Positions 3,012 through 19,141 of a stretch of 64,000 nucleotides of DNA are shown here, piece by piece. The position numbers were made by a program, and so were the translations under genes. Position 1 is the stretch's first letter. Each line of letters starts with the position of its first letter. Origin of the DNA: Paucibacter sp. DJ2R-2 (GTDB lineage Bacteria > Pseudomonadota > Gammaproteobacteria > Burkholderiales > Burkholderiaceae_C). The stretch is from the NCBI RefSeq assembly GCF_025717675.1, contig NZ_JAJIRT010000009.1, forward strand, positions 62,001 to 126,000, written 5' to 3'. Below the pieces are notes generated by a model. The model saw only the letters and a list, made by a program, of their open reading frames with translations. It searched no databases and was not told the DNA's origin.

Positions 3012-3041
3012 CTCAGCCTTGCAGCTGTGCCCAGACTTTGT
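3012..3041 (-). repeat. Second copy of the hrpA 3' end
   Basis: These 30 bases repeat the last coding bases of hrpA (3097-3126) with one mismatch, 85 bp downstream of the original. The frame and stop are kept, so read on the minus strand it would encode HKVWAQLQG and a stop. It lies in the gap between hrpA and the pseudokinase gene. Confidence 0.9.
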
Positions 3042-3085
3042 GGCTCCGACCTGGCATGCCCTGCGGGCAGATGTCAGTCTCGCCG

Positions 3086-3095
3086 CAAAGTCTGG
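3086..3095 (+). repeat. Inverted copy of the repeat head, hrpA module
   Basis: CAAAGTCTGG here is the exact reverse complement of CCAGACTTTG at 3031-3040 and of the same ten bases inside hrpA (3116-3125). It lies 2 nt past the hrpA stop and 45 nt before the second copy, so it could pair with either flanking copy. Confidence 0.85.
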
Positions 3096-3096
3096 A

Positions 3097-3126
3097 CTCA
3101 GCCCTGCAGCTGTGCCCAGACTTTGT
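3097..3126 (-). repeat. First copy of the repeated hrpA 3' end
   Basis: This is the native 3' end of hrpA, covering the last eight codons, the stop and one further base. It is repeated at 3012-3041 with 29 of 30 bases identical. Confidence 0.9.
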
Positions 3127-6100
3127 CCAGGCGCTTGACGCTGACCGGCTGGGGCGTGCGCAGCTCCTGAGCGAAGAGGCTGACACGCAACTCCTCCAGC
3201 TGCCAGCGGAAATCGGCCAGACGTGCGTCCGCCGTGCCCTTGAGCTCGATGACGCGGCGCAGATAGCGCTGCTCCAGGGGCTTGAGTTCGCTCAGCAACT
3301 TGGCGTCACGGGCCGCATCGGCGCGCAGCTTGTCCAGGCGGGCGGTCACGGCCTTGAGGTAACGCGGCAGGTGCTGCAGCTGTGCCCAGGGCGTGGTACT
3401 GACGAAGTTCTTCGGGCACAGGCGCTGCAGCTGGGCCGTGATGTCCTCGGCCGCCTCCTTGCCAGCGCGCGCGTCCTTGAGTTTTTTCTGCGCCGCATGC
3501 AGCTCCTGCAGCACCACGCCGGTCTGGCGCGCCACTTCCTGGGCGATCAGATTGAGGCGGCTGCGCCCCTCCTCGATGCGGGTTTTGAAGCTGAACTCGT
3601 CCTTGGGCAAAGGTTCGGCCAGGAAGGCCCGGTCCAGGGCCACGCCGATGATCTGGTCGCGCAGCTCTTCGGCCGTGCCCAAGCTCATGAAGAGCACCGA
3701 CATTTTTTGCAGGTCGGGGATGTTCTTCTCCAGGAACTTGAGCGGCTCCTTGAGCTGCAGCGCCACCAGGCGACGCAGGCCCAGGCGATGTTTGGCGGCG
3801 GCTACATCGGGCTCGTCGAAGACCTCGATCTCGACATGCGCGCCACGGTCCAGCAGGGCCGGGAAGCCGATCAGGCTTTGCGCGCCGCGGCTGACTTCCA
3901 TCAGCTCGGGCAGCTCGCCAAACGTCCAAGCCGTGTAGGTCTTGGCGGATTCCTGCACCGGCTTCTTGGCTTGCACCACCTCGGCGCGAATGCCACCTTT
4001 CGCCACTGGCGGCAGCGGCTCGGAAGCAGGCGCAGAAGCTGGCAGCTTGAGCGCCGCCAGTGCCTGGAAAGCCGAGCGTGCCTGGCCACCCAGCTCCGAC
4101 TTCAAAGCCGCCAGATTGCGGCCCTGGCCGAGCTGGCGGCCATGTTCGTCGACGACGCGGAAGTTCATGAACAGATGCGGCTGCAGCTGCTCAAGCTTGA
4201 AGTCATTGCGCTGCACGGCCAGCTGGCTGCGCTCCTTGACCGCCTTGAGCAGCACCTCGACCAAGGCGCCCTGCGCAAAGGGGTTGCTGGCGATGAACTC
4301 GGCAACAAAATCGGGCAGCGGCACCAGGCGCGAGCGCGGGCGCTGGTGCAAGCTCTTGAGCAAGGCGGTGATCTTCTGCGCCAACATGCCGGGAACCAGC
4401 CACTCGCAGCGCTCCTCGCTGACCTGGTTGAGCGCGAAGATGGGCACATTGACAGTGACACCGTCGCGCGCATCGCCGGGCTCGTGCAGATAGCTGACCG
4501 TGCAGTCAACGCCGCCCAGGCGCAGGGTCTTGGGGAAGGCCTCGGTGGTGACGCCGGCCGCCTCGTGGCGCATCAGCTCCTCGCGGCTCAGATGCAAAAG
4601 CTTAGGCTCGGCCTTGCTGGCCTGTCGATACCAGCGCTCCAACGTGGCGCCCGAGCAGACCTCGGCGGGAAGCTGGCTGTCGTAGTAGGCGTAGATCAGC
4701 TCGTCATCGACCAGCACGTCCTGGCGGCGCGACTTGTGCTCCAACTCCTCGACCTTCTTGATCTGGCGCTCGTTGTGGGCCAGAAAAGGCAGGCGCGATT
4801 CCCACTCGCCATTGACCAGGGCCTCGCGGATGAAGATCTCGCGCGCCGCCTTGGCATCGACATTGCCGAAGTTCACGCGCCGGTTGGCGTAGATGACGAT
4901 GCCGTAGAGCGTGGCGCGCTCGAGCGCGATCACCTCGGCCGCCTTTTTCTCCCAATGCGGCTCCAGCAGTTGGGTCTTGATCAAATGGCCGGCAATGCCG
5001 GGCAGCCACTGCGGCTCGATGGCGGCAATGCCGCGGCCGAACAGCCGCGTGGTGTCCACCAGCTCGGCGGCGACGATCCAGCGGCCCGGCTTCTTGCTCA
5101 GGTGAGCGCCGGGATGGCGCCAGAACTTGATGCCACGTGCGCCCAGGTACCAGTCCTCGTCCTCGCTCTTGAGGCCAAGATTGCCCAGCAGGCCGGCCAA
5201 CATGGACAGGTGCAACTGCTCGTAGGTGGCGGGGCTGCCATTGAGGCGCCAGCCCTGCTCGGCCACCACGGTATGGAGCTGGGAGTAAATGTCCTTCCAC
5301 TCGCGCACGCGGCGCGGGCTGATGAAGTTCTCTCGCAGCAGGGCTTCGTAGCGGCGATTGCTGAGCTTGTGCTCGCCGTGCCCGCCCTTGGCCTCCTCGA
5401 TCCATTTCCAGATCTTGAGGTAGCCCAGGAACTCGCTCTTCTCGTCGTCGAACTTCTTGTGCTTCTCGTCGGCCGCCTGTTGCTGCTCCATGGGCCGGTC
5501 GCGCACGTCTTGGCCCGAGAGCGCGCTGGCGATGATCAGCACCTCGTTGAGCGCCTCGCGGTTGCGGGCTTCCAAAATCATGCGGCCGACGCGCGGGTCC
5601 AGCGGCAGCTTGGACAGCTCGCGGCCCAAGGACGTCAGCTCGTTCAAATCATCGACCGCGCCCAACTCCTGCAGCAGCTGGTAACCATCGGCCACGGCCT
5701 TGCGTGGCGGCGGCTCGATGAAGGGGAATTCATCGACCTGTCCCAGGCCCAGCGACTTCATGCGCAGGATCACGCCGGCCAGCGAGCTGCGCAGGATTTC
5801 CGGGTCGGTGAAGCGCGGGCGTTCGTTGAAGTCCTTCTCGTCGTAGAGACGGATGCAGATGCCGTTGCTCACCCGGCCGCAGCGGCCCGCGCGCTGGTTG
5901 GCCGAGCTCTGACTGACCGGCTCGATCTGCAGCTGCTCGACCTTGTTGCGGTAGCTGTAACGCTTGACCCGTGCGGTGCCAGGGTCGATGACGTAGCGGA
6001 TGCCGGGTACCGTCAGCGAGGTTTCGGCCACATTGGTGGCCAGCACGATGCGGCGCTGACCATGAGGCTCGAACACGCGGTCCTGCTCGGCCTGCGACAA

Positions 6101-7129
6101 GCGGGCGAACAGGGGCAGCACCTCGACGCCGGGCGGGTGATGCTTGCGCAAGGCCTCGGCCGCTTCGCGGATCTCGCGCTCGCCGGGCAGGAAGACCAGC
6201 ACATCGCCGCCGCCCTCACGCCAGAGCTCGTCCACCCCGTCGCAGATCGCGTTGTTGAGGTCGTACTCGCGCGACTCTTCAAACGGCCGGTAACGCTGCT
6301 CGACCGGGAAGGTGCGGCCCGAGACCATCAGCACCGGCGCCGGCCCCTTGGCAGACTCGAAATGCTTGGCAAACCGGTCGGCGTCGATGGTGGCCGAGGT
6401 GACGATGACCTTGAGGTCCGGCCGGCGCGGCAGCACCTCGCGCAGATAGCCGAGCAGGAAATCGATGTTCAGCGAGCGCTCATGGGCCTCGTCGATGATG
6501 ATCGTGTCGTAGGCCTTCAGCAGCGGGTCGGTCTGCGTCTCGGCCAGCAAGATGCCGTCCGTCATCAGCTTGACGCTGGCGCCCGGCTGCAGGCGGTCTT
6601 GGAAGCGGACCTTGTAGCCCACGATCTCGCCCAGCGGCGTCTTCAGCTCGTCGGCAATGCGCTTGGCGACGCTGCTGGCGGCAATGCGCCGGGGCTGGGT
6701 GTGGCCGATCAGCTTGCCCGAGTTCGCGCGGCCGCGACCCAGGGCCAAGGCGATCTTGGGCAGTTGGGTGGTCTTGCCCGAGCCGGTCTCGCCGCAAACG
6801 ATGATGACCTGGTTCTCGGCCAAGGCCTGGGCGATGTCATCGCGCCGGCTCGACACCGGCAAAGACTCGGGGAAGGTGATGGGCGGCAGCGGGTTGGCCG
6901 GCGGCAGCGGCCGCTCGTTCTCTGGCCGAGGCGGCCGAGGTGGGCGCGGGGCGCGCGGAGGGCGCGGAGCTTCCGAGGCCTGGGCGGCAGGCGCCGTTTG
7001 GCCCGTCTGCGCGGGCTGAGGTGGACGCGGCGGACGGCCCTGCCCGGCAGCACGGGCTGCGTTGGCTTCGTTGGGGGCGCGGCGGGCGGTGCCCGGCGGA
7101 CGAGGGGGATGGGGGGGCTTGGCGTTCAC
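3098..7129 (-). CDS. hrpA: ATP-dependent RNA helicase HrpA (DEAH box)
   Basis: A DEAH-box RNA helicase of about 1343 residues, close to the roughly 1300 of E. coli HrpA. Visible motifs are Walker A (GETGSGKTTQLPK), DEAHERS, the VTSATID motif III and the motif VI region QRAGRCGR, followed by the HA2/OB-fold region and the long HrpA-specific C-terminal domain. HrpA remodels RNA and ribosomal complexes in the cytoplasm. The N-terminus is an unusual Pro/Arg-rich disordered stretch of about 90 residues. I chose the GTG at 7129 (NAKPPHPP after the initiator). The frame is open to a GTG at 7270, but that would leave only 11 nt to the divergent argA start. The 3' end is duplicated downstream (see the repeats). 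Confidence 0.93.
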   Translation of the reverse strand: MNAKPPHPPRPPGTARRAPNEANAARAAGQGRPPRPPQPAQTGQTAPAAQASEAPRPPRAPRPPRPPRPENERPLPPANPLPPITFPESLPVSSRRDDIAQALAENQVIIVCGETGSGKTTQLPKIALALGRGRANSGKLIGHTQPRRIAASSVAKRIADELKTPLGEIVGYKVRFQDRLQPGASVKLMTDGILLAETQTDPLLKAYDTIIIDEAHERSLNIDFLLGYLREVLPRRPDLKVIVTSATIDADRFAKHFESAKGPAPVLMVSGRTFPVEQRYRPFEESREYDLNNAICDGVDELWREGGGDVLVFLPGEREIREAAEALRKHHPPGVEVLPLFARLSQAEQDRVFEPHGQRRIVLATNVAETSLTVPGIRYVIDPGTARVKRYSYRNKVEQLQIEPVSQSSANQRAGRCGRVSNGICIRLYDEKDFNERPRFTDPEILRSSLAGVILRMKSLGLGQVDEFPFIEPPPRKAVADGYQLLQELGAVDDLNELTSLGRELSKLPLDPRVGRMILEARNREALNEVLIIASALSGQDVRDRPMEQQQAADEKHKKFDDEKSEFLGYLKIWKWIEEAKGGHGEHKLSNRRYEALLRENFISPRRVREWKDIYSQLHTVVAEQGWRLNGSPATYEQLHLSMLAGLLGNLGLKSEDEDWYLGARGIKFWRHPGAHLSKKPGRWIVAAELVDTTRLFGRGIAAIEPQWLPGIAGHLIKTQLLEPHWEKKAAEVIALERATLYGIVIYANRRVNFGNVDAKAAREIFIREALVNGEWESRLPFLAHNERQIKKVEELEHKSRRQDVLVDDELIYAYYDSQLPAEVCSGATLERWYRQASKAEPKLLHLSREELMRHEAAGVTTEAFPKTLRLGGVDCTVSYLHEPGDARDGVTVNVPIFALNQVSEERCEWLVPGMLAQKITALLKSLHQRPRSRLVPLPDFVAEFIASNPFAQGALVEVLLKAVKERSQLAVQRNDFKLEQLQPHLFMNFRVVDEHGRQLGQGRNLAALKSELGGQARSAFQALAALKLPASAPASEPLPPVAKGGIRAEVVQAKKPVQESAKTYTAWTFGELPELMEVSRGAQSLIGFPALLDRGAHVEIEVFDEPDVAAAKHRLGLRRLVALQLKEPLKFLEKNIPDLQKMSVLFMSLGTAEELRDQIIGVALDRAFLAEPLPKDEFSFKTRIEEGRSRLNLIAQEVARQTGVVLQELHAAQKKLKDARAGKEAAEDITAQLQRLCPKNFVSTTPWAQLQHLPRYLKAVTARLDKLRADAARDAKLLSELKPLEQRYLRRVIELKGTADARLADFRWQLEELRVSLFAQELRTPQPVSVKRLDKVWAQLQG

Positions 7130-7281
7130 GAGGCGCGGATTATCGTTGTCCCGCGGCGGCCGGCTCCAAACAAGGGCAGGCGCCTCCGAATCCACGAGCC
7201 TGTTTCTCGCCTGGGCGCCCCACCCCAGTTCAAGCGCAAGCCCCCCAGGGAAGACCCGGAGCTGCGGCACAATCGCGGGCC

Positions 7282-8631
7282 ATGAGCCTTGTCTTTCCCC
7301 ACACCTTCGTTCCCTGGTTTCGCTCCGTCGCGCCCTATATCCATGCCTACCGAGGTGAGACCTTTGTGGTGGGCATGCCCGGTGAACTAGTGGCGGCCGG
7401 CAAGCTCAATGCCTTTGTGCAGGACCTGTCCATCCTGCATGCCATGGGCATCAAAATCGTGCTGGTGCATGGCTTCCGGCCCCAGGTGAACGAGCAGTTG
7501 GCGGCCAAGGGCCAGCAGGCGCAGTACAGCCACGGGGTGCGAGTGACCGATGCGGTGGCCCTGGACTGTGCACAGGAAGCCGCCGGCCAACTGCGTTTCG
7601 AGATCGAAGCGGCCTTTTCGCAGGGCCTGCCCAACACGCCCATGGCCAATGCCACGGTGCGTGTGGTGTCCGGTAACTTTCTGACGGCCCGCCCGGTCGG
7701 CATCGTCGATGGCGTGGATTTCCAGCACAGCGGCTTGGTACGGCGTGTCGATGCAGCGGCCATCCAGCGCGCCATCGACAGCGGCGCCGTGGTGCTGCTC
7801 TCCCCTTTCGGCTTCTCACCCACCGGCGAGGCTTTCAATCTGACCATGGAGGATGTGGCCACCAGTGCCGCCATCGCTCTGCAAGCGGACAAGCTGCTGT
7901 TTGTCTGCGAAGTGGCCGGCGTGCGTGAGGACCCCAACGACCCGGACAGCCCGGTCGATACCGAACTGGCCCTGGCCGATGCCGTGCGCATGTTGGCCCG
8001 GTCGAACAAGCCGACGGCCGGTGCAACACCGCCGATCGACGTCGACTTCTACTTGCAGCACTGCGTCAAAGCCTGCCAGGCCGGCGTGGAGCGCTCGCAC
8101 ATCGTGCCTTTTGCCGTTGACGGCGCCTTGCTGCAAGAGGTCTACACCCATGACGGCATCGGCACCATGGTGGTCGATGAAAAGCTGGAAAGCCTGCGCG
8201 AGGCTGATTCGGATGACATCGGCGGCATCATTGCCCTGATCGAACCGTTCGAGCGCGACGGCACTCTGGTCAAGCGGGACCGGACCGAGATCGAGCGCGA
8301 CATCGAGCTCTACACCGTGATCGAGCATGACGGCGTGATCTTTGGCTGCGCAGCCCTCTACCCCTATGTGGAAGCGCGCACGGCCGAGATGGCGGCGCTG
8401 ACTGTGTCGCCCGATGTGCAAGGCCAGGGCGACGGCGACCGCATCCTCAAACGCATCGAACAGCGCGCCAAGGCGCAAGGTCTGAGCAGCATCTTTGTGC
8501 TGACCACACGCACCATGCACTGGTTCATCAAGCGCGGCTTCCACCCCGTGGACCCGGAGTGGCTGCCCGAAGAACGCAAGCGCAAGTACAACTGGGACCG
8601 CCGCTCCCTGGTTCTGGTCAAAAAGCTCTGA
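7282..8631 (+). CDS. argA: N-acetylglutamate synthase ArgA
   Basis: A 449-residue protein with the classical two-domain ArgA layout. An amino-acid-kinase-like fold (about 1-290, with IKIVLVHGFRPQVN near the start) is followed by a GNAT acetyltransferase domain (about 300-449, with MAALTVSPDVQGQGDGDRIL forming the acetyl-CoA site). It makes N-acetylglutamate from glutamate and acetyl-CoA, the first step of arginine synthesis, and is normally feedback-inhibited by arginine through the kinase-like domain. The start is the ATG at 7282, which matches the usual N-terminus; the frame is open further upstream but that part overlaps the divergent hrpA. No terminator stands out before yggX. Confidence 0.95.
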   Translation: MSLVFPHTFVPWFRSVAPYIHAYRGETFVVGMPGELVAAGKLNAFVQDLSILHAMGIKIVLVHGFRPQVNEQLAAKGQQAQYSHGVRVTDAVALDCAQEAAGQLRFEIEAAFSQGLPNTPMANATVRVVSGNFLTARPVGIVDGVDFQHSGLVRRVDAAAIQRAIDSGAVVLLSPFGFSPTGEAFNLTMEDVATSAAIALQADKLLFVCEVAGVREDPNDPDSPVDTELALADAVRMLARSNKPTAGATPPIDVDFYLQHCVKACQAGVERSHIVPFAVDGALLQEVYTHDGIGTMVVDEKLESLREADSDDIGGIIALIEPFERDGTLVKRDRTEIERDIELYTVIEHDGVIFGCAALYPYVEARTAEMAALTVSPDVQGQGDGDRILKRIEQRAKAQGLSSIFVLTTRTMHWFIKRGFHPVDPEWLPEERKRKYNWDRRSLVLVKKL

Positions 8632-8748
8632 GCTCAGCCTCTCACAAACACAGACAGCCCACCCCGGTATTGCCGGCGCGCTAGAGTCCGCGCCACCCGG
8701 CGCAAACCCGAGCAACGCGCACACACCCGAGAAATGAAGGAATACACC

Positions 8749-9021
8749 ATGGCACGCACCATTCACTGCACCCACCTGAACAAAGAAGGCGAAGGCCTGG
8801 ATTTCGCGCCCTACCCGGGCGAGCTGGGCAAACGCATCTACCAAAACATCAGCAAGGAAGCCTGGGCCCTGTGGATGAAGCACCAGACCATGCTGGTCAA
8901 TGAAAACCGCCTCAATCTGGCCGATCTGCGCGCCCGCCAATACCTGGCCCGCCAAATGGAGCAGTTCTTCTTCGGCGCCGGCGCTGAAGCGGTGGCGGGC
9001 TACGTCCCGCCAACGACCTGA
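8749..9021 (+). CDS. yggX: Probable Fe(2+)-trafficking protein YggX
   Basis: A 90-residue protein of the YggX family, with the usual [19 protein letters not shown] start, [10 protein letters not shown] and ISKEAWA blocks, the single conserved Cys7, and a GYVPP end. YggX proteins help protect Fe-S clusters against oxidative damage and are proposed to traffic iron in the cytoplasm. The ATG at 8749 was chosen over an in-frame ATG 15 nt upstream because it matches the family start and follows an AAGG ribosome-binding sequence. The last 57 bases of the gene reappear 126 bp downstream, and the likely terminator is at 9229-9258, beyond that second copy. Confidence 0.93.
8965..9021 (+). repeat. First copy of the repeated yggX 3' end
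   Basis: The last 57 bases of yggX, encoding [18 protein letters not shown] and the stop. They are repeated at 9091-9147 with 48 of 57 bases identical. Confidence 0.85.
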
Positions 9022-9034
9022 GCGGCCCGAAGGC

Positions 9035-9042
9035 AAGAATTG
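9035..9042 (-). repeat. Inverted copy of the repeat head, yggX module
   Basis: AAGAATTG here is the reverse complement of CAATTCTT at 9088-9095 at the head of the second copy, with exactly 45 nt between them. It can also pair with CAGTTCTT in yggX if one G-U pair is allowed. Confidence 0.75.
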
Positions 9043-9052
9043 CGGGGAGCGC

Positions 9053-9075
9053 TCACCTGCGCGCAGCGCAGGTGA
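9053..9075. repeat. Perfect 10-bp hairpin inside the yggX repeat module
   Basis: TCACCTGCGC (9053-9062) and GCGCAGGTGA (9066-9075) are perfect reverse complements around a 3-nt loop. No T-run follows, so it does not look like an intrinsic terminator. It forms the core of the 45-nt spacer. Confidence 0.85.
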
Positions 9076-9090
9076 TGGGATCACCAACAA

Positions 9091-9147
9091 TTCTTCTTCG
9101 GCGGCAGCGCCAAAGCGGTGGTGCGCTACGTCCCGCCGACGCCTTGA
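9091..9147 (+). pseudogene. Duplicated C-terminal fragment of yggX
   Basis: The gap of about 300 bp between yggX and the iron-binding-protein gene holds this second copy of the yggX 3' end. It would read FFFGGSAKAVVRYVPPTP and stop, so length, frame and stop are kept while 9 of 57 bases differ. There is no start codon with a ribosome-binding site of its own, so it is probably not translated alone. It could be a decayed duplicate or part of a recurrent repeat module. Confidence 0.8.
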
Positions 9148-9228
9148 TCGCAAGCACCAGCTGATGGAGTGATCCTCACCGGGCCATCCGCAAGCAGCCT
9201 CAAGCCGCGCTCCCGATGCAAGCGCAGA

Positions 9229-9258
9229 AACAAGCCCGCAGTGTTCGGGCTTGTTTTT
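9229..9258 (+). terminator. Rho-independent terminator after the yggX region
   Basis: AACAAGCCCG (9229-9238) pairs with CGGGCTTGTT (9246-9255) around a 7-nt loop, followed by T residues. It is the only good terminator downstream of yggX and lies about 80 bp beyond the duplicated 3' end. Confidence 0.85.
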
Positions 9259-9266
9259 CAATCACA

Positions 9267-9285
9267 AACAAGAATCATTCTTGTT
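9267..9285. promoter_or_regulatory. Fur-box-like 9-1-9 palindrome
   Basis: AACAAGAAT-C-ATTCTTGTT is a perfect 19-bp palindrome with the 9-1-9 layout of a Fur box. About ten positions match the classical consensus. It lies 45 bp upstream of the start of a ferric-iron binding-protein gene, where Fur repression is expected. Confidence 0.65.
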
Positions 9286-9329
9286 CAATGTAAACTTCGC
9301 CGCACACACACAGTTTGGAGTTTTCTTTC

Positions 9330-10382: not shown

Positions 10383-10388
10383 AGCCCT

Positions 10389-10430
10389 GCGCTGCACCGC
10401 AGCAGATACAGCGCGGCGGTGCAGCGCTTT
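10389..10430 (+). terminator. Hairpin terminator after the iron-binding-protein gene
   Basis: GCGCTGCACCGC (10389-10400) pairs perfectly with GCGGTGCAGCGC (10416-10427), and three T residues follow. The stem is strong but the T-run is short. Confidence 0.7.
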
Positions 10431-10506
10431 ACTATTTAGCCGCGCCAGCTTTGGCAAATAGTAGGCAATACTGCGTAGCAAACCACAGCAGGGTTTCATG
10501 GGGCTT

Positions 10507-10535
10507 GTTTGATTTAGGGCTTGTATGCCTATAAT
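10507..10535 (+). promoter_or_regulatory. Probable sigma70 promoter of the H-NS gene
   Basis: A consensus TATAAT sits at 10530-10535, about 50 bp upstream of the H-NS start codon. The -35 is weak (TTGTTT or a shifted match at about 10507-10513). The surrounding DNA is AT-richer than the rest of the window, which would suit H-NS autoregulation. Confidence 0.55.
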
Positions 10536-11171: not shown

Positions 11172-14100
11172 TTGGACGACACCTCCCCACTCCACACGCC
11201 AAGCTACTTGCGCCGCAGTTCGCTGACCGCGGCGAGCCAGAGCCTGCTCAAGTCGCTGGCGCTCTTGCTGGTCCACCTGCTCTGGGCTTGGTGGGTGATG
11301 CGGCTGACCCCCGCTGCGGGCTCGGGGTCTGGCGCCCTCGTTCACCATGGCGGCTTGCTGTGGGCGCCCGCTGGTCTGGCGCTGGCAGCCCTTCTTTGCT
11401 GGGGCACGCGCCACCTGCCAGTGCTCTGGCTGGGCAATCTGATGCTCGCCCTGCTGCTGGACACCCCACCCCTGCTGGCCCTGGCCCTGGCTTGCAGCCA
11501 GGTGTTCGGCCCCTGGGTCGCCGCGCACTGGCTCAAATCGGTCGGCTTCCAGACGCCGTTGCAGCGCGGCCGAGACATGGTGCAGTTGATCGTCCTGGGC
11601 GGTTTGTGCGGCAGCGGCCTCTCAGCCTTGGGCGCCTGCCTGGCACTGCAAGCTGCCGGGTTGATGCCCGGCCACACTGCCCTGGCCCATCTCTTGCTGA
11701 GCTGGACCGGCCAAGCACTGGGCGCGCTCGGTCTGACGGCACTGCTGATGCGCTTGACCCGATTCAAGCTGGCGGGGATTGCAACTGTTCCAAATAGCTG
11801 GCTGGCACTTCTGCTCAGCGCCAGTTTGGCGGTGGCCTGCCTCGCAGCCACGGCCTTGTTGCTTCAAGAACCGCAACTCGGTGTCGCCAGCCTGAGTTGG
11901 CTGCTGCTAACGCTGGGCTTGTTCAGCGTCCTGGCCCTGCGCGGCCAGGGCAGCCTCGCCGTGGGCACGCTGCCCCTGATTCTGGGCGGCCTGAGCCTGG
12001 CCACCGCTCAGGCTCAAGGGCCACTGGCCCCGCTGAGCAGCATCGAGCAGAGCGCCGCTTTGACGCTTTACGGCTTCACCCTGAGCCTGCTGCCAGGCCT
12101 GCTATTTGCGCAGCGCGCTGAAATGCACGAAGAGCGGCGGCATTGGCAAGGTCTGCTGGCGGCCACCGGCATCGGCTTGGCCGAATGGCGCCTCGGCCAC
12201 GGCCAACGCGGCCTGCGCAAGGTGCAACTCAGCAGCCAGGCCTGCCCGACCTGGGTACGCTACACCGGCGCACAACCCGAACGCGATGCCTGGCCCAGCG
12301 ACTGGCTGGCCGTCGCTCACCCCTTGGACCGTGAACGCTGCCGCCAAGCCATCGAGAGCTTGCTGCCACCCGGCGGGCCTGATGAATTCCTCGAGCCCCT
12401 GCGGCTGAATACGGCGGCCGGCCAATGGCATTGGTACGAACTCAAGGGCAGCGTTCAGCAGCGCGATGCCCAAGGACACAGCTTGCGTCTGCTGACCCTG
12501 CTCAGCGATGTCAACTGGCAGCACCAGGCCGAAGAGCGGCAGCGCATGAGCGTGGCCTTGTTCCAGCATCTGCACGAGGGCCTGGCGGTCACCGACACCG
12601 ACTACCGCGTGCTCGATGCCAACCCCAGCTTCTGCCGCATGCTGGGTTTGCAGCGCGACGACCTGGTCGGACAGCCGGCCCCGCCGCTGACCCTGCCGGT
12701 GCTGCGGACCTCGGGCCTGAACCCCGAGCATCTGCAGCAGCAACTCTTGAGCGAAGGTTTCTGGCAGGCCCGCGTACAGGCAGCCCGAGCCGATGGCAGC
12801 GCCTGCCAGCTGCAGCTGACTGTCTCCAGCATCCCAGAGCCCAACGGACCGCTGCGCTACCGCGTGATCACCATGTCCGACCTGACCCTGGCCTTGCAGC
12901 AGCAAGAGCTGCTCGACCGCCAGGCTCGCTTCGACCCACTGACCGGCCTGCCCAACCAAGATGAATTCATGCGCCTGCTGCGCCAGGGGCTGGACAGCAG
13001 CCAGCGCGAAGGTTTTCGCCTGAGCATCTGCCGCCTGGACCTGGACCAGTTCAAGCACATCAATGCGGAGCTGGGCCCGGAACGGGGCGACAGCCTCTTG
13101 CTGCAAGTGGCGCAGCGCCTGCAGTCCGCCCTGCGCAGCAGCCCGCAATGGTCGGATGTGGTGGCGCGCCTGGGCGGCGACGAATTCGGCCTCTTGCTGC
13201 GCACCGATGGCCCGGAGGAAGCCCAGCAGGCGCTGGAACGTTTGCTCTCGGTGGTGGCACAGCCCTACCAACTCGAGGCCTGCACACCCCAAAGTTTGGT
13301 TGAGCCCACCCCTGTCATCAGCGAACTCAGCGCCAGCATTGGCGCGACCCTGTTCCCGCAAGACGACAGCGATGCCGAAACGCTCATGCGCCATGCCGGT
13401 CACGCGCTCTACCGCGTCAAGCACGGCGGCCGCAAAGGATTCCAGCTCTTCGACACTGCCAAGCGCTTGCGCAATGAGGCCAGCCTGATCGCGCTGGCTC
13501 GTGTCCAGCAGGCGCTCGATGCGGGCGAGTTGCAGCTCCACTTCCAACCCAAGATCGATATGCAGACCGGCCAGGTGCTGGGCATGGAAGCCCTGCTGCG
13601 CTGGCAACACCCGGAGCGCGGCTTGCTCGGCCCCGCGCATTTCCTGCCCTTGATCGAAAGCACGGGCCTGGGTGTGCAGGTCGGCGACTGGGTGATGGAG
13701 CAAGCGCTCAAGCACAGCGAGCAATGGCTGGCCCTGGGCCTGCGCCTGAACATCAGCGTCAACGTGACCGCCCGCCAGTTGCAGATGCCGGACTTTGCGC
13801 AGCGCCTGCTGGAACTGATTCAGCGCCACAGCGAGCCGGTGGCCCGCCACCTGTGCCTGGAGGTGCTGGAGTCCGCCGCCCTGGCCGACATCAGCGCCAC
13901 CCAAGCCCTGATCAAACGCTGCCGCGGCTACGGCGTCAGCTTTGCCCTGGACGACTTCGGCACCGGCTACTCCACCCTGACCTATCTGCAGCGCCTGCCC
14001 GTCGATGCACTCAAGATCGACCGCTCCTTCGTGCAGAACATGTTGATCAACAGCCAGGACAGCGCCTTGGTCGAAGGCGTGATCGGCCTGGCGCGCAACT

Positions 14101-14306
14101 TTGGCTGCACGGTGGTGGCGGAAGGCGTGGAGACCGCGGCCCATGCACGCGCCCTGCTGCGCCTGGGCTGCATCCACGGCCAGGGCAATGGCATCGCCGA
14201 GGCCATGCCGGCCGGTGAGGTCGAGGCCTGGGTGCGGCAGTTTCCGCAATCGGGCTGGATGCAGGCTCTGCGCGCCCGCGAGGCCGGTGGCAGCGGCAGC
14301 TTGTAG
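11172..14306 (+). CDS. Membrane-bound MASE1-PAS-GGDEF-EAL c-di-GMP signalling protein
   Basis: A 1044-residue protein. The first 310 residues form about eight to ten hydrophobic segments resembling a MASE1 sensor. Two PAS-like regions follow (about 325-440 and 455-575; HEGLAVTDTDYRVLDAN is typical). A GGDEF domain contains LGGDEFG (about residue 667) and an EAL domain contains MEALLRW (about 805), DDFGTGYS and KIDRSFV. Both catalytic signatures look intact, so it may both make and degrade cyclic di-GMP. The start is uncertain: TTG at 11172 is the longest choice and lacks a strong ribosome-binding site. Only 9 nt separate it from dnaG, so it probably shares a transcript with dnaG and rpoD. Confidence 0.9.
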   Translation: MDDTSPLHTPSYLRRSSLTAASQSLLKSLALLLVHLLWAWWVMRLTPAAGSGSGALVHHGGLLWAPAGLALAALLCWGTRHLPVLWLGNLMLALLLDTPPLLALALACSQVFGPWVAAHWLKSVGFQTPLQRGRDMVQLIVLGGLCGSGLSALGACLALQAAGLMPGHTALAHLLLSWTGQALGALGLTALLMRLTRFKLAGIATVPNSWLALLLSASLAVACLAATALLLQEPQLGVASLSWLLLTLGLFSVLALRGQGSLAVGTLPLILGGLSLATAQAQGPLAPLSSIEQSAALTLYGFTLSLLPGLLFAQRAEMHEERRHWQGLLAATGIGLAEWRLGHGQRGLRKVQLSSQACPTWVRYTGAQPERDAWPSDWLAVAHPLDRERCRQAIESLLPPGGPDEFLEPLRLNTAAGQWHWYELKGSVQQRDAQGHSLRLLTLLSDVNWQHQAEERQRMSVALFQHLHEGLAVTDTDYRVLDANPSFCRMLGLQRDDLVGQPAPPLTLPVLRTSGLNPEHLQQQLLSEGFWQARVQAARADGSACQLQLTVSSIPEPNGPLRYRVITMSDLTLALQQQELLDRQARFDPLTGLPNQDEFMRLLRQGLDSSQREGFRLSICRLDLDQFKHINAELGPERGDSLLLQVAQRLQSALRSSPQWSDVVARLGGDEFGLLLRTDGPEEAQQALERLLSVVAQPYQLEACTPQSLVEPTPVISELSASIGATLFPQDDSDAETLMRHAGHALYRVKHGGRKGFQLFDTAKRLRNEASLIALARVQQALDAGELQLHFQPKIDMQTGQVLGMEALLRWQHPERGLLGPAHFLPLIESTGLGVQVGDWVMEQALKHSEQWLALGLRLNISVNVTARQLQMPDFAQRLLELIQRHSEPVARHLCLEVLESAALADISATQALIKRCRGYGVSFALDDFGTGYSTLTYLQRLPVDALKIDRSFVQNMLINSQDSALVEGVIGLARNFGCTVVAEGVETAAHARALLRLGCIHGQGNGIAEAMPAGEVEAWVRQFPQSGWMQALRAREAGGSGSL

Positions 14307-14315
14307 ACTCGCCGC

Positions 14316-16349
14316 GTGATTCCTCCCGGCTTTATCCAAGATCTCCTGTCCCGCACCGACATCGTCGAAGTCGTGGGGCGCCATGTCGAGCTGAAAAAAG
14401 CCGGCATCAACCACAAGGGGCTCTGCCCATTTCACGGTGAGAAGTCTCCGAGCTTCATCGTCAGCCCGACCCGCCAGACCTACCACTGCTTCGGCTGCGG
14501 CGTGCACGGCAATGCGGTCGGCTTTCTGATGGAGCACAGCGGCCTGGGTTTTGTCGAGGCTGTGCAGGACCTGGCTCAGCAGGCCGGCATGCAAGTACCG
14601 CAGGACGAACGCTCGGCCGAGGAACGCGAACGCGCCGCCCAGCAAAAGCAGCGCCAGGCCACCTTGACCGATGTGCTGCTGCGCGCCAGCGACCATTACC
14701 GCGGCCAGCTGAAAAAATCGCCTCGGGCCATCGACTACCTGAAGAAGCGCGGACTCACCGGCCAGATCGCGGCCCATTTCGCCCTAGGCTATGCGCCCGA
14801 AGGCTGGCGCGCTTTGGCCAGCGCCTTTCCGGCCTATGACGACCCCTTGTTGGCCGAGGCCGGCATGGTGATTGTTTCGGGCGAAGAAGGCGAAGAACAA
14901 AAGCGCTACGACCGGTTTCGCGACCGCATCATGTTCCCGATCCGCAATGTCCAGGGTGAAACCATTGGCTTCGGTGGCCGGGTGCTGGACAAGGGCGAAC
15001 CCAAGTATCTGAACTCGCCGGAAACCCCGGTCTTCAGCAAGGGCCGCGAACTCTACGGCCTGTACGAGGCGCGCGCCGGCCTGCGCCAACGCGGCTACGC
15101 CCTGGTGGTGGAAGGCTATATGGACGTGGTGGCCCTGGCCCAAAGTGGCTTCAACAATGCCGTGGCCACCTTGGGAACGGCCTGCACGGCCGAGCATGTC
15201 CACAAGCTCTTCCGCTTCACCGAATCTGTGATCTTCAGCTTCGACGGCGACGCCGCCGGCCGCCGCGCTGCCGGCCGAGCACTGGAGGCCGCCCTGCCCC
15301 ACGCCACCGACACGCGCAACGTCAAATTCCTGTTCCTGCCGGCCGAGCATGACCCGGACTCCTATGTGCGCGAGCTCGGCGCCGAGGCCTTCGAACGTTG
15401 CGTGCAGGAGGCGATTCCACTGTCGCGCCAGCTCATGGAGGCCGCGGCCGAAGGCTGCGACCTGGGCAGCGTCGAAGGGCGCGCCCGCATGCTCTCGAAT
15501 GCCCGTCCGCTCTGGCAGGCCCTGCCGCAGGGCCTGATGAAGCGAGCCCTGCTCGGCGAACTGGCGCGCCGCGCCCAGCTGAGCGATCAAGACCTGATGT
15601 CGGCCTGGCAGGTGCAAAGCGAAGGCAGCCCAGGTCGCAGCGGCACCCGTGAGGCCGGCCCACGCCAAGCCGCCCCCCGACGCGCCTTCGATGGCCCCGA
15701 CGATGCGCCCGCCCACTATGACGAGATGGACTTCGCGCCGGCGGGCGGCGACTACGACAGCGCAGCACCACAAGCCCATGCCGGCGAGCCGCGCCCGGAG
15801 CGCAAGCCATGGAAGCCCAAAAAAGAATGGGTGGACGCCAAGGACTGGAAAGGCAAAGGCGGCTGGAAGCGCCGCGAAGGCGGCGAGGACTCGGGGCCCC
15901 AGTTGCCCAGGCGCGCGCCCAGTTCGCCGGTCGACAACGCCCTGCGCATGCTGCTGCTGAACTGTGCCTGGTGGGAGCGCCTGAGCGCCGAAGACCACCA
16001 GCTGCTGCACCAGCTGCCCGGCGTGCACGGCGAGCTGGTAGCCTGGCTGGAGCGCCACCTGGTCCACCACGGAGCCAGTGCCTGGTCGGTGCTGGAGGCG
16101 GCCATGGCTGAGGACGGTGTGCTGGATTCGGCGCGCGGCCTCTTGGTGGACCTGTTCACGGAAGATGAGCCGCACTTCGAGGTCTTCCAGATGGCCATGC
16201 GCCAGCTCTGGATGGCGCAGTTGGGTGCCGAAGCACAGCAATTGGCCATGAGCAACCCGCAGGGAGAGAGCCTGGAGCGATTCAAGCAGTTGCGCGCCCG
16301 TATTCAGAGCTTGCAGAGCACGGCCTTGACGCCCGGGGAAAGCGCCTGA
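14316..16349 (+). CDS. dnaG: DNA primase DnaG
   Basis: A 677-residue DNA primase that makes RNA primers for replication and works with DnaB, also encoded in this window. The N-terminal CHC2 zinc finger has Cys37, His40, Cys58 and Cys61. The TOPRIM core shows VVEGYMDVVAL and the metal-binding FDGDAAGRR. A long low-complexity linker (about 440-535, rich in Pro, Lys, Arg and Gly) precedes the C-terminal DnaB-interacting domain. The start is the GTG at 14316, because the protein then begins IPPGFIQDLLSR, the usual DnaG N-terminus. The order dnaG-rpoD is the conserved macromolecular-synthesis arrangement, but rpsU is absent and a GGDEF-EAL gene occupies its place. Confidence 0.97.
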   Translation: MIPPGFIQDLLSRTDIVEVVGRHVELKKAGINHKGLCPFHGEKSPSFIVSPTRQTYHCFGCGVHGNAVGFLMEHSGLGFVEAVQDLAQQAGMQVPQDERSAEERERAAQQKQRQATLTDVLLRASDHYRGQLKKSPRAIDYLKKRGLTGQIAAHFALGYAPEGWRALASAFPAYDDPLLAEAGMVIVSGEEGEEQKRYDRFRDRIMFPIRNVQGETIGFGGRVLDKGEPKYLNSPETPVFSKGRELYGLYEARAGLRQRGYALVVEGYMDVVALAQSGFNNAVATLGTACTAEHVHKLFRFTESVIFSFDGDAAGRRAAGRALEAALPHATDTRNVKFLFLPAEHDPDSYVRELGAEAFERCVQEAIPLSRQLMEAAAEGCDLGSVEGRARMLSNARPLWQALPQGLMKRALLGELARRAQLSDQDLMSAWQVQSEGSPGRSGTREAGPRQAAPRRAFDGPDDAPAHYDEMDFAPAGGDYDSAAPQAHAGEPRPERKPWKPKKEWVDAKDWKGKGGWKRREGGEDSGPQLPRRAPSSPVDNALRMLLLNCAWWERLSAEDHQLLHQLPGVHGELVAWLERHLVHHGASAWSVLEAAMAEDGVLDSARGLLVDLFTEDEPHFEVFQMAMRQLWMAQLGAEAQQLAMSNPQGESLERFKQLRARIQSLQSTALTPGESA

Positions 16350-16761
16350 TCTGCAATATTTGACGGCAACCGCGAGGCCGCCCTGTCAATATCAGCGATA
16401 ATTCAGGGTTTTCGCGCGCGTCTCAAGAGTGACGGCATGTGCTTCCGGACCCGGCCACCCAGCGACACTGGGCACCCACAGCGGTATCAAGGCCACCTGT
16501 ATCCGCCAAGCCATGCATTGAAAAACGTACACGCTAGCTTGGTCGCGCCACGTTGCTGAAGGAGCCTGAATCGCAGGCACTGACGGCGGCGTCTGAATGC
16601 CACCTGGGTCGAGCTCCGCCTTGAAAAGCGCAGTGACCGCCCCCAGGTGGCTGCTGCATTTGCAAAACGCTGCGGCACACCGAGTTCAGCGAAAAATATT
16701 TTCAGTTTCCAGCTTTCCCTAGCTTTACGGCCCGCCCGCCACCATCCACCCGAGGATCTGC
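16350..16761 (+). promoter_or_regulatory. Long leader upstream of rpoD
   Basis: A 412-bp non-coding stretch. It contains a perfect 10-bp inverted repeat, GCCACCTGGG (16599-16608) with CCCAGGTGGC (16642-16651), and a sigma32-like promoter overlapping its right arm. Imperfect AATATTTGAC/GTCAATAT arms occur at 16356-16394. No convincing ORF, tRNA or known RNA family was recognised. Confidence 0.6.
16620..16648 (+). promoter_or_regulatory. Candidate heat-shock (sigma32) promoter for rpoD
   Basis: CTTGAAA (16620-16626), a 14-nt spacer and CCCCAGGT (16641-16648) closely match the sigma32 consensus CTTGAAA/CCCCATNT. Heat-shock promoters for rpoD are known in E. coli. Here it lies about 110 bp before the start codon. 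Confidence 0.55.
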
Positions 16762-19041
16762 ATGACTGCCAAGAAGACCGCGACCACCGCTCCCGAAGCC
16801 GAAGAGACCAAGAAGCCCGCAGCCAAGGCTGTCCGGGTGGTCAAGGCCGTGAAGGCCGATGCAGCAGCCGCTGACAAGGCCGAAAAGCCCGCCAAGGCCG
16901 TGAAGGCACCCAAGGCGGCAGCGGCCACGGTCGAAGACGAGGACAAGCCCAAGCGCGGTCGCAAGCCCAAGGCAGCCACGGAAACCAAGAAGGCCACCGG
17001 CAAGAAGGCCGCCGAGGTAGAAGAAGAGGACTTCTCCGATCTCGAAGCCGACCTGGAAGGCGAGCCGGAAGCTGAAGCGGAAACCGAAGTCGCTGAGGTC
17101 GCCGAAGACAAGCCCAAGGCCAAGCCCCTGCGCATGAAAGTCTCGCGCGCCAAGGAGCGCGCGCTGATGCGCGAGTTCGGCCTGGAGGAAACGGCACTGA
17201 CGGAAGAAGAAGCCGCCAAGCGCCGCCACGAGCTGAAGACCCTGATCAAGATGGGCAAGACGCGTGGTTTCCTGACTCACCAGGAAATCAACGACCACTT
17301 GCCCGAGAAGCTGGTCAACGAGGAAATCCTCGAGGCCATCATCTCCATGTTGAACGACATGGGCATCGCGGTCTATGAGCAGGCACCGGACGCCGCTACC
17401 CTGCTGATCCAGGGCAGCGCCACCGCCACCTCGACCGAAGAAGAAGCCGAAGAAGCCGCCGAAGCCGCCCTGTCCACTGTGGACTCGGAATTCGGCCGCA
17501 CCACCGACCCGGTGCGCATGTATATGCGCGAAATGGGCACGGTCGAACTGCTGACCCGCGAAGGCGAAATCGAAATCGCCAAGCGCATCGAAGGCGGCCT
17601 GCAGGCCATGATGCTGGCCATCTCGGCCTCGCCCACCACCATCGCCCACATCCTGGACCTGGCCGACAAAATCCGCGCCGGCGAGAAGACCATTTCGGAA
17701 GTGGTGGACGGCTTCGTCGCTGCCGACGAGGCGGACGACTATGTGGCCGAAGAAGACTTCGACGAATTCGACGAAGAAGACGACGACGACGGCAATGGCG
17801 GCTCCAAGGCCCTGACCAAGAAGCTCGAAGAGCTGAAGAATGCCGCCCTCGTCAAGCTCGATTCGCTGGCCGTCAATTTCGACAAGATGCGCAAGTCCTT
17901 CGAGAAGGACGGCTACAAATCAGCCTCCTACAACAAGGCTCAGCAAGCGATCAGCGCCGAGTTGATGACCATCCGCTTCACCGTCAAGACGATTGAGAAG
18001 CTCTGCGATCTGCTGCGCTCGCAAGTGGACGATGTGCGCCGCTACGAGCGCGAGCTGCGCAAGATCGTGGTGGACAAATGCGGCATGCCTCAGGAGTACT
18101 TCATCAAGACTTTCCCACCCAATGCGCTGAACCGCGCCTGGGCCGAGAAGGAAGTGGCCGCCGGCAAGCCTTATTCCAATGTGCTGGCGCGCAATCTGCC
18201 GCCCGTGCAAGAACTGCAGCAAAAGCTGATCGACATCCAGAGCAAGGCCGTCGTGCCGATTGATGACCTCAAGGACATCAACAAGAAGATGAACGAGGGC
18301 GAAAAGGCCTCGCGCGACGCCAAGAAGGAAATGATCGAGGCCAATTTGCGCCTGGTGATTTCCATTGCCAAAAAGTACACCAACCGCGGCCTGCAGTTCC
18401 TGGACCTGATCCAGGAAGGCAATATCGGCCTGATGAAGGCGGTGGACAAGTTCGAATACCGTCGCGGCTACAAGTTCTCGACCTATGCGACCTGGTGGAT
18501 CCGTCAGGCCATCACCCGTTCGATCGCCGATCAGGCCCGCACCATCCGTATTCCGGTGCACATGATCGAAACGATCAACAAGATGAACCGCATCTCGCGC
18601 CAGCATTTGCAGGAATTCGGCTTTGAGCCGGATGCGCCTACCCTGGCCGAGAAGATGGAGATTCCTGAAGACAAGATCCGCAAGATCATGAAGATCGCCA
18701 AAGAGCCGATTTCCATGGAAACGCCGATCGGTGACGATGACGACAGCCACCTGGGCGACTTCATCGAGGACACCAACAACACCGCGCCGATCGAAGCAGC
18801 GATGCAAGCCGGCCTGCGCGATGTGGTGAAGGACATCCTCGACAGCCTGACCCCGCGCGAAGCCAAGGTGCTGCGCATGCGCTTCGGCATCGAAATGAGC
18901 ACGGACCACACGCTGGAAGAAGTGGGCAAGCAGTTCGACGTCACCCGCGAACGCATCCGCCAGATCGAAGCCAAGGCCATCCGCAAGCTCAAGCACCCCA
19001 GCCGCTCGGACAAGCTGCGCACGTATCTGGACAACCTGTAA
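16762..19041 (+). CDS. rpoD: RNA polymerase primary sigma factor RpoD (sigma70)
   Basis: A 759-residue housekeeping sigma factor. Residues 1-115 are a Lys/Ala/Glu-rich disordered extension with an AT-hook-like KRGRKPK. Region 1.1 follows (from about 130), then region 1.2 ([16 protein letters not shown]), a non-conserved acidic insert, regions 2.1-2.4 ([34 protein letters not shown]), region 3, and region 4 with its helix-turn-helix ([17 protein letters not shown]). E. coli RpoD is 613 residues; the extra length is mostly the N-terminal tail, as seen in other betaproteobacteria. The ATG at 16762 follows GAGGA. The last 32 bases are repeated 100 bp downstream, before the terminator at 19164-19190. 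Confidence 0.97.
19010..19041 (+). repeat. First copy of the repeated rpoD 3' end
   Basis: The last 32 bases of rpoD, encoding [10 protein letters not shown] and the stop. They match 19110-19141 at 30 of 32 positions. Confidence 0.9.
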
Positions 19042-19057
19042 GGTTGTTGAGATGCGT

Positions 19058-19075
19058 AGCCCGCTGCGGCGGGCT
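19058..19075. repeat. GC-rich hairpin in the rpoD repeat spacer
   Basis: AGCCCGC (19058-19064) and GCGGGCT (19069-19075) form a perfect stem around TGCG. No T-run follows, so it is unlikely to be an intrinsic terminator. Confidence 0.8.
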
Positions 19076-19090
19076 GCCGCGCAGCGGAAA

Positions 19091-19099
19091 CGCAGCTTG
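19091..19099 (-). repeat. Inverted copy of the repeat head, rpoD module
   Basis: CGCAGCTTG is the reverse complement of CAAGCTGCG, found both in rpoD (19011-19019) and in the second copy (19111-19119). This is the same arrangement as in the hrpA and yggX modules, but with an 11-nt spacer instead of 45. Confidence 0.75.
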
Positions 19100-19109
19100 C
19101 GCCGCAGGC

Positions 19110-19141
19110 ACAAGCTGCGCACATATCTGGACAAGCTGTAA
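19110..19141 (+). pseudogene. Duplicated C-terminal fragment of rpoD
   Basis: A second copy of the rpoD 3' end, 100 bp after the first, reading HKLRTYLDKL and a stop. The two differences are acg/aca (silent) and aac/aag. It is immediately followed by the presumed rpoD terminator. Confidence 0.85.

Follow-up and report, generated by a model that had tools for sequence, protein, structure and literature searches.

Gene-end repeats with inverted heads at hrpA, yggX, rpoD, ssb and tRNA genes in Paucibacter sp. DJ2R-2 and its relatives: candidate gene-less cassettes

Results

In the present study, a common layout was observed at the 3' ends of three unrelated genes, hrpA, yggX and rpoD, in a window of 64,000 nucleotides from Paucibacter sp. 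DJ2R-2 (NZ_JAJIRT010000009.1, positions 62,001 to 126,000). The last coding bases and the stop codon are repeated shortly downstream, and the spacer between the copies holds an inverted copy of the head of one of them. The same layout recurs at ssb and at two tRNA genes of relatives, and at rpoD the coding end and the sequence behind it form a conserved fold. We tentatively explain these modules as structured gene-end cassettes that hold no gene of their own, lie ahead of the resident gene end and are stacked, lost and exchanged by recombination.

The repeat values of the initial annotation were reproduced upon re-measurement, with 29/30 identities at hrpA (period 85), 48/57 at yggX (126) and 30/32 at rpoD (100), and the inverted heads were recovered in the respective spacers, 45, 45 and 11 nt ahead of copy 2 by hand count. 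When each spacer was shuffled 20,000 times at the mononucleotide level, inverted matches of equal length arose 9 (hrpA), 139 (yggX) and 45 (rpoD) times. Two details of that annotation had to be corrected: the inverted head fits copy 2 (CAATTCTT) and not copy 1 (CAGTTCTT) at yggX, and the rule that heads start with CAA fails at ssb, where the head is GACGA. No other local direct repeat of the window at periods of 20-260 scores as high as the three modules, which reach 30, 27 and 26, the next one being at 15. In 384 kb, 307 gene ends passed a GC3 filter; the three modules scored 26.5-35 and every other end 9 or less, in a scan whose random-draw control was imperfect, as 17 of 1,535 draws fell on the gene itself and one score of 27 was untraced.

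On the minus strand, hrpA (3098..7270; NCBIfam TIGR01967 above cut-off) carries its module at the 3' end. Copy 1, the real coding end with the stop, lies at 3097..3126, directly followed by the inverted head CCAGACTTTG at 3086..3095, by a predicted spacer hairpin with the core TGCCC-GCA-GGGCA at 3042..3085, and by copy 2 at 3012..3041. The remaining features are on the plus strand. The gene yggX, encoding an oxidative damage protection protein, spans 8749..9021 (NF003817 above cut-off, searched from codon 2); copy 1 with the stop (8962..9021) agrees with copy 2 with its stop (9088..9147) at 50/60 positions when the frame is extended, and between them lie the inverted head AAGAATTG (9035..9042) and a predicted hairpin, TCACCTGCGC-GCA-GCGCAGGTGA (9043..9087), similar to hairpins in relatives. 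In rpoD (16762..19041; NF004208 above cut-off), copy 1 at 19010..19041 comprises the head CAAGCTGCG, which is the 5' arm of P1, the 5' arm of P2 and the stop. The 3' arm of P2, an inverted copy of the last codons, follows directly at 19042..19055, and then come the P3/P4 hairpin region (19056..19090), the 3' arm of P1, which is the inverted head CGCAGCTTG (19091..19099), the linker hairpin P5, CGCC-GCA-GGC-A, kept between genera (19100..19110), and copy 2 (19110..19141). A terminator-like hairpin lies behind copy 2 at 19161..19186 (one found, shuffle mean 0.5), so that the module is probably within the rpoD 3' UTR.

A fourth module of the same layout lies at ssb, within the 1.48 Mb of this genome that was sampled. 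By score alone, ORF ends are not enriched in this sample: 9 of 8,825 ORF ends reached 20 or more, 5 of these rows being the four true cases with ssb counted twice, vs 7 of 2,449 ORF-internal positions, which mostly belong to repeat-protein genes. The true cases are recognised by a copy placed outside the gene. Repeats were also observed at the 3' ends of tRNA-Leu in G004 (55/56, period 149) and tRNA-Gly in G007 (58/68, period 195), and in both an inverted copy of the gene end encloses a terminator hairpin. At tRNA-Leu, an inverted match as long occurred in 162 of 20,000 shuffles, a figure valid for this gene only, as the inverted copy at tRNA-Gly lies inside the stretch taken as the repeat. 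Of 18 genus genomes, 8 gave matches to a query of tRNA-Leu with its spacer over at least 230 of its 301 bases, as judged by match length alone. The screen covered 22 tRNAs in the window genome (G000), 8 in G007, 5 in G004 and 27 in relatives; other high scores were whole tandem tRNA genes and were rejected. A repeat was also seen at the 5' side of tRNA-Ser in the 400-kb samples of G007 and G004. Those samples, 400 kb from each genome, yielded no further protein-gene module, and in 80 scanned loci of relatives modules were found at yggX and rpoD only. In the 1.48-Mb sample, L191, L192, L205, L180 and L177 were judged by eye to be protein repeats.

The modules are distributed patchily when the same loci are compared in relatives. 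At rpoD, 8 of 17 readable genus genomes carry the full module, 3 its left half and 6 none; a yggX module or remnant was seen in 9/17, an hrpA module in 2/18 and an ssb module in 2/17. Across the family, rpoD units occur in 13 genera, and another genus has a minimal form. Modules at the same gene are related between species, which together with the additional cases speaks against unrelated duplications. Behind copy 2 comes the downstream sequence of module-free relatives, both at rpoD (G000 with G002; G010 with G001 and G008) and at ssb (G007 with G011); the genomes that lack a module may be losses, so the polarity of insertion falls short of proof. Mixed rpoD arrays occur in G013 (types I, II, I) and G114 (II, I, decayed II). 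At hrpA, the spacers of G011 and the window are identical at 55/57 positions, with 90.5% identity in the gene body, and copy 1 reads DKVWAQLQG in G000 and G011, as in G009 and G013, vs EKVW in the 14 other genomes. Copy 2 of G011 scores 18 with its sister G006 and 16 with G013 and G000, and copy 2 of G000 is in no way G006-like. The readings of copy 1 are suggestive of a foreign origin at hrpA, a case made thin by the copy 2 comparisons; at yggX, a foreign origin of copy 1 was not seen.

Codon differences between the downstream copies and the real gene end were largely synonymous in several genomes, with synonymous:nonsynonymous counts of 5:0 (G010), 7:0 (G013), 5:0 (G208) and 6:1 (G114), and of 3:0 and 2:0 for the ssb copies. 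Since several copies behind a stop codon differ synonymously only, we infer that they were once coding. Across non-yggX pairs with at least 20/30 identities, the total was 44:22, and the rpoD copies of G006 (3:3), G007 (2:8), G033 (2:7), G292 (1:6) and G114 copy 3 (0:3) are decayed. Most yggX copies look neutrally decayed (3:6, 3:11, 2:13, 4:4, 4:4, 1:18 and 1:12; 3:1 in G011). Exact copies in G003, G004, G013, R. violae and ssb copy 3 are compatible with plain tandem duplication.

The rpoD unit folds as a cloverleaf, in which P1 joins the head and the inverted head, P2 joins the last codons and stop with about 14 nt after the stop, and P3, P4 and the linker hairpin, which ends with an unpaired A, complete the structure; the first 14 nt past the stop are thus also an inverted gene end, followed by two hairpins. 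Across 17 rpoD units, 93.1% of cells were paired, vs 84.5% after shuffling (0/500) and at most 40.8% after sliding; the covariation was 0.318 vs 0.172, with one of five measures (further pair types) not elevated. In these 17 units, pairs are kept through two-sided changes beyond the controls, which is the mark of a conserved structured RNA. The mean fold z was -5.96, and the sense strand was more stable in 14 of 19. The fold is conserved; it is possibly conserved as RNA, a preference over DNA drawn from the tolerance of G-U cells only (26 vs 12 A-C by hand count, with the G-U cells not independent, 8 of them at one pair). In 12 of 19 rpoD units, pairing of the inverted head is better with the upstream head of the same unit than with copy 2; it is worse in 1 and equal in 6, although one of the 12 is an unfair comparison involving a truncated head. 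A covariance model of rpoD, as had been suggested, recovered units in genomes outside the building set: at E 0.05, 21 of 200 genomes matched, of which 13 were read as full, 1 as minimal (G175) and 2 as partial (G044, G214), and 5 were not modules, being 3 rpoD ends without a module and 2 loci other than rpoD. Upon refolding of 8 module genomes, the cloverleaf was obtained in G083, G082, G169, G145 and G171; G050, with a unit identical to that of R. violae, gave no P2, G159 a different P1 and G175 no parsed fold.

In searches for dispersed copies, the hrpA module gave one match in its own genome, the ssb spacer was found nowhere but at ssb, and the exact rpoD linker was found at rpoD only in 18 genus genomes; the many dispersed copies of REP/RAYT elements were not seen in the hrpA search of this genome or in the exact linker search of the genus. 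With up to one mismatch, the linker occurred in 10 of 18 genus genomes and at least 114 of 299 family genomes. Among 10 of the genus loci taken, both of the two with context were coding by eye, and these loci were rejected; of 24 loci checked from the family scan (4 scan loci and 20 further stretches), most were chance matches, largely coding by eye (e.g. L330 of G211 and L342 of G215). In Rfam 15, no family was over threshold; P36 reached 30.5 of 36 bits at rpoD of G000, where its match (19057-19118) overlaps the P3/P4 region, and up to E 0.1 it gave no match at 7 other module loci.

Discussion

Herein, we propose that each cassette would consist of the last 20-60 nt of a gene, with its stop or terminator, and a spacer made up in part of that end in inverted form, with extra hairpins inserted. 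The gene would read into the end of the cassette, and the older end would remain downstream as copy 2, a layout that is observed directly. Other lineages might supply at least some of the new cassettes, and ordinary homologous recombination would be the simplest entry, the gene body and the duplicated end acting as the left and right arm, respectively. Cassettes would stack via tandem duplication and leave via recombination between copies, whereby the real gene-end allele changes. Exchange, stacking and loss are suggested by the synonymous-only copies, the mixed arrays and the empty sites. For the first cassette at each gene, hairpin-templated copying is our guess.

A serious rival, to which we grant a smaller but real chance, is that the modules arise and are maintained by mutation, with neither selection nor transfer. 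Gene-end palindromes would provoke template switching: after folding back on itself, the nascent strand would copy the head in the reverse direction, return to the original template and copy the gene end a second time. Further switching would keep the arms complementary and the copies similar. This would account for a layout of copy, inverted copy and copy that is common to protein and tRNA genes, for the exact tandem units and the homogenised yggX copies of G011 (56/60), for the inverted head of yggX in G004, which fits an altered copy 2, and for the likeness of the rpoD linker to the gene sequence immediately 5' of the head (a 41-nt repeat, 88%). The register of P2 varies between lineages at near-perfect complementarity, as re-templating would give, which argues against the cassette reading. 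However, template switching leaves unexplained why copies behind a stop differ synonymously only and why the linker is almost invariant across genera beside variable stems, and it does not predict the excess of G-U over A-C. Rather improbable is a site-specific integrative element or its scar, the spacer being the element or a remnant and the gene end the attachment site of an integrase or homing nuclease acting in trans. The layout is that of e14 at icd and of mitochondrial C-terminal swaps, the rpoD linker is constant, and tRNA 3' ends, which are classic attachment sites, are affected too. Nevertheless, the spacer differs gene by gene, and no second copy was found 331-4000 bp downstream of 223 gene ends (best 21/30, shuffled control up to 20), a search of protein genes only in which some genomes are in both sets and many loci reach about 1.5 kb only. 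No integrase or homing-endonuclease gene lies within the module, the window spacers measuring 56, 66 and 69 nt, with no larger versions at the 223 gene ends, and the integron attC core motifs RYYYAAC and GTTRRRY are in none of the three window spacers.

A selected 3' UTR switch, in which ribosomes at the stop would decide whether the inverted head pairs with copy 1 or copy 2, seems highly improbable. Both of these mutually exclusive pairings, raised in the initial annotation, can form in the three window modules, and the rpoD module precedes a terminator-like hairpin; this is nonetheless the weakest of the suggested candidates, as the rpoD inverted head follows its own upstream head, the cloverleaf persists where copy 2 is decayed or missing (G007, G033, G292, G169), and tRNA genes involve neither ribosomes nor stops. 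Pairing at tRNA genes would, moreover, compete with the tRNA fold, which argues against an RNA role there. It is very unlikely that ordinary, unrelated duplications came to be alike by chance: high repeat scores are as common within ORFs as at their ends, but the layout is common to six genes and rpoD covaries across genera. The proposal of one process rather than three chance duplications is thus supported by ssb, tRNA-Leu, tRNA-Gly and the relatives, and the three mechanisms offered with it all survive in part; the small mobile palindrome stays a candidate except in dispersed form, given the single genome match of the hrpA module and the locus-bound rpoD and ssb spacers.

Several known systems resemble the proposed cassettes. 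The E. coli icd gene is an integration site of phage 21 as well as of e14. According to the reports on e14, the element brings a new 3' coding end to icd, leaves the 165-bp native end on its far side, and exchanges 12 nt with 2 conservative amino-acid changes (PMC11148124, PMC6379469). The cassettes are alike in layout and in the native flank behind copy 2, and a new 3' end in front may have displaced the native one, as the synonymous-only copies at rpoD and ssb would suggest; unlike e14, a whole prophage, the insert is tens of nt long, too short for a gene, strongly palindromic and stackable. In fungal mitochondria (Allomyces atp6; Glomus atp6, atp9, cox2 and nad3), a foreign C-terminal end in front likewise displaces the native one, and the inserts carry a homing-endonuclease ORF (PMC3630166). 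No such ORF was seen here, and those swaps are described there with no fold covarying with the coding end. Rfam candidate structured RNAs share a conserved fold with compensatory changes, whereas here one stem half is protein-coding, stop included. Short GC-rich hairpins adjoining gene ends recall REP/RAYT and other repetitive hairpin elements, and GTAG precedes one rpoD hairpin, which we take to be a REP-type motif; unlike those elements, dispersed copies were not found. No comparable gene-end system appeared in the literature searched, which lay outside most subscription papers.

It is conceivable, if doubtful, that these modules represent a new class of gene-less cassettes at protein and tRNA genes: cruciforms or cloverleaves whose 5' halves are the last bases of the gene, which would spread between species via their own gene end and push the old end downstream, with the end codons of rpoD tied to spacer pairing and the arrays serving as an archive of past alleles. 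If the cassette reading is true, the 3' ends of core genes, including the main sigma factor and tRNAs, would be exchanged as small gene-less units, and alleles swapped by this route would leave a legible trace downstream of the gene. The terminal codons and the stop codon would be tied into a conserved fold with the following sequence, which may bear on termination, mRNA decay and the level of rpoD. Should the mutational rival be true, these loci would instead document, in nature, recurrent template switching at palindromes. In either case, gene-end repeats such as those behind a small number of housekeeping and tRNA genes in these Roseateles-like bacteria can lead annotation and phylogeny astray.

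Results

The repeated gene ends that the initial annotation reported for hrpA, yggX and rpoD in Paucibacter sp. DJ2R-2 (genome G000; G denotes genomes of the genus or family and L stretches taken from them) are present in the window sequence, the gene identities were borne out, and within the 64 kb window they outscore every other local direct repeat. The inverted copies of the repeat heads also held up, with a match of equal length in 9 (hrpA), 139 (yggX) and 45 (rpoD) of 20,000 shuffled spacers. In 1,484,057 bases of the 5.8 Mb, 47-contig genome (26%, window included), ssb was added to yggX, rpoD and hrpA. ORF ends were not enriched by score alone, because repeat-protein genes reach equal scores: a repeat score of at least 20 was observed at 9 of 8,825 ends (ORFs of at least 80 codons, spurious ones counted) versus 7 of 2,449 positions inside ORFs. 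The end of ssb occurs in three copies, in the order GACGATATGGATGACGACATCCCTTTCTGA, TCGTC (inverted head), the mini-hairpin CCTGCGG, AA and the copy repeated. In all four modules the gene end with its stop is followed by an inverted head, a GC-rich hairpin and one or two A, after which the stop-bearing gene end recurs. Of these modules, three fall inside 16 kb (window 3012-19141). Contigs C1 and C6 of this genome start with exact 77-nt tandem copies (L010 1-77, period 71; L017 1-77, period 98), probably an assembly edge effect.

Among 18 genus genomes (all readable at hrpA, 17 at each other gene), the full rpoD module was observed in 8 of 17 (G000, G003, G004, G006, G007, G010, G013 and G014; the downstream copy, copy 2, is unrecognisable in G007) and the left half alone in three (G005, G009, G011), and the module was absent from six (G001, G002, G008, G012, G016, G017). 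A yggX module or remnant was observed in 9 of 17 (G000, G003, G004, G006, G008, G010, G011, G015, G017), and the hrpA and ssb modules were confined to G000 with G011 and G000 with G007, respectively; a pattern search recovered the ssb module in 2 of 299 family genomes. Across 80 YggX-flank loci (1.24 Mb, 7,006 ORF ends), the only gene-end duplications were those of yggX and rpoD in near relatives. A Paucibacter toxinivorans MAG (G017; L145, L112, L242) carries a MITE-like element of ~190 bp (inverted ends GGATGCTCTGCATAA / TTATGCAGAGCATCC) within its yggX module and downstream of rpoD, with a similar one behind ssb, and in G016 (L111) a CGAGCTCTGACCCCAACTG-type repeat array takes the place of the module behind the rpoD 3' region.

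Outside the genus, the 17-nt linker TTGCGCCGCAGGCACAA was observed at rpoD ends in G022, G033, G219 and G292; G114 and G208 have it with a single mismatch. With an E cut-off of 0.05, an rpoD covariance model matched 21 genomes out of 200 in the family; inspection of the matches revealed full units in 12 genera (13 genomes), or 13 genera once g107 is counted, and a minimal module in G175. This module (L378), with gene end, inverted head, 11-nt linker and gene-end copy and without hairpins P3 and P4, is possibly the simplest form. Refolding of genomes outside the model set gave a cloverleaf in G083, G082, G169, G145 and G171, and one that was not clean in G159, where two identical units stand in tandem. 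Tandem units are also present in G219 and additional copies in G145 and G082, and a longer linker hairpin (P5) with a GCA loop in G083 and G171 resembles hrpA and yggX.

In RNAfold predictions for 19 parsed rpoD units (mean z -5.96; sense more stable than antisense in 14), stem P1 (head with inverted head) encloses P2 (last codons with bases after the stop), P3 and P4 in most units, with P2 lacking in R. violae. After two near-identical units were left out before alignment, 93.1% of P1, P2 and P5 cells were paired in the remaining 17 versus 84.5% in shuffles, and covariation was 0.318 versus 0.172 (0 of 500 shuffles as high for either); slid-structure controls stayed at or below 40.8% and 0.079. 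Changes on both sides of a pair affected 37 cells versus 14 when shuffled, and further pair types were not raised (16 versus 17.4). There were 26 G-U cells, eight of them at a single pair, versus 12 A-C/C-A cells (looser count, 8:5 in P1 and 19:7 in P2). In 12 of 19 units P1 pairing favoured its own head over that of the next copy (the comparison being unfair for G219); six units showed no difference and one the reverse. For 18 distinct units, matched and swapped arms gave -12.2 versus -7.0 kcal/mol in P1 and -16.2 versus -11.5 in P2, and none of 10,000 permutations equalled the matched arms. Because related sequences are non-independent, these predicted-fold statistics are strong indications and not probabilities.

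The 3' end and terminator of tRNA-Leu in G004 (L302 7078-7282; 55/56 nt identical, period 149 bp) and of tRNA-Gly in G007 (L279, about 7180-7480, minus strand; 58/68, period 195 bp) are likewise duplicated with an inverted copy. In predicted folds, this copy pairs with the gene end, the terminator hairpin lies inside and more hairpins lie alongside, following the plan of the rpoD unit; a reading as ordinary terminator or tRNA duplication was rejected. According to match tables, with sequences read only in G004 and G007, the tRNA-Leu query with spacer matched over at least 230 of 301 bases in 8 of 18 genus genomes (G001, G004 at two places, G006, G007, G010, G011, G013, G016); in G000 the match is confined to the tRNA part, and the module was absent at the one locus inspected there. 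Long tRNA-Gly matches among the genus genomes were limited to G007 and G004. G007 also has a repeat at the 5' side of tRNA-Ser (L274 7456-7695): a 46-nt piece recurs 140 bp upstream, and the hairpins lying in between include one with a GCA loop. The duplication process may thus extend past 3' ends. Other local repeats are a palindromic one in G004 (L290 1485-1602; 47 nt, period 71) and one in G007 (L272 9450-9638; 42 nt, period 147).

Discussion

Copy 2 continues into the native flank of module-free relatives in several pairs (rpoD, G000 with G002 and G010 with G001 and G008; ssb, G007 with G011). The first hrpA copy reads DKVWAQLQG in G000 and G011, near G009 (DKVWAQLQG) and G013 (DKVWAQMQG), and the end is EKVW in the other 14 of 18 genomes. 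Copy 2 of G011 is nearest to its sister G006 by a narrow margin (18 versus 16), and that of G000 is not G006-like; between G000 and G011 the spacer matches at 55/57 and the gene body at 90.5%. Downstream copies of rpoD in G010, G013 and G208 and of ssb differ only synonymously. These copies were probably coding when they diverged, judging from the substitutions, since translation of its own cannot hold a copy synonymous after a stop, and the mixed rpoD arrays of G013 (I, II, I) and G114 (II, I, decayed II) fit this reading. Synonymous to nonsynonymous ratios at other rpoD copies were 6:1 in G114 (copy 3, 0:3), 3:1 in G014, 4:2 in G003, 1:1 in G000, 1:2 in G004, 3:3 in G006, 2:2 in G022, 2:8 in G007, 2:7 in G033 and 1:6 in G292; the G000 hrpA copies gave 1:1, and nonsynonymous differences prevail in yggX except in G011 (3:1).

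Herein, we tentatively propose, at somewhat less than an even chance for the explanation as a whole, that the modules are structured gene-end cassettes placed before the resident end. Foreign gene ends would enter, spread through homologous recombination with the gene body and the duplicated end as arms, and be lost by recombination between copies, which the mixed end caagttgcggacctatttggacaacctgtaa of G002 fits. The first modules may well have arisen by template switching at palindromes, which accounts better than transfer for the inverted copies and for the shifts in P2 register. Three findings, namely the slim margin at hrpA, the resemblance of the rpoD linker to the gene and the existence of tRNA modules, temper the cassette proposal and raise the odds of both this mutational origin and a site-specific element or its scar. 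Prophage e14 at icd (PMC11148124, PMC6379469) and mitochondrial C-terminal swaps (PMC3630166) have a layout like that of the modules, but their inserts are large and gene-bearing, whereas no such insert was found in the three window spacers, nor a second gene-end copy 331-4000 bp downstream of 223 protein-gene ends, for many of which about 1.5 kb was covered.

A putative function is suggested by the site of the rpoD module ahead of a terminator-like hairpin and by the covariation at rpoD, and the tRNA modules weaken the case for a translation-linked or mRNA-only role.
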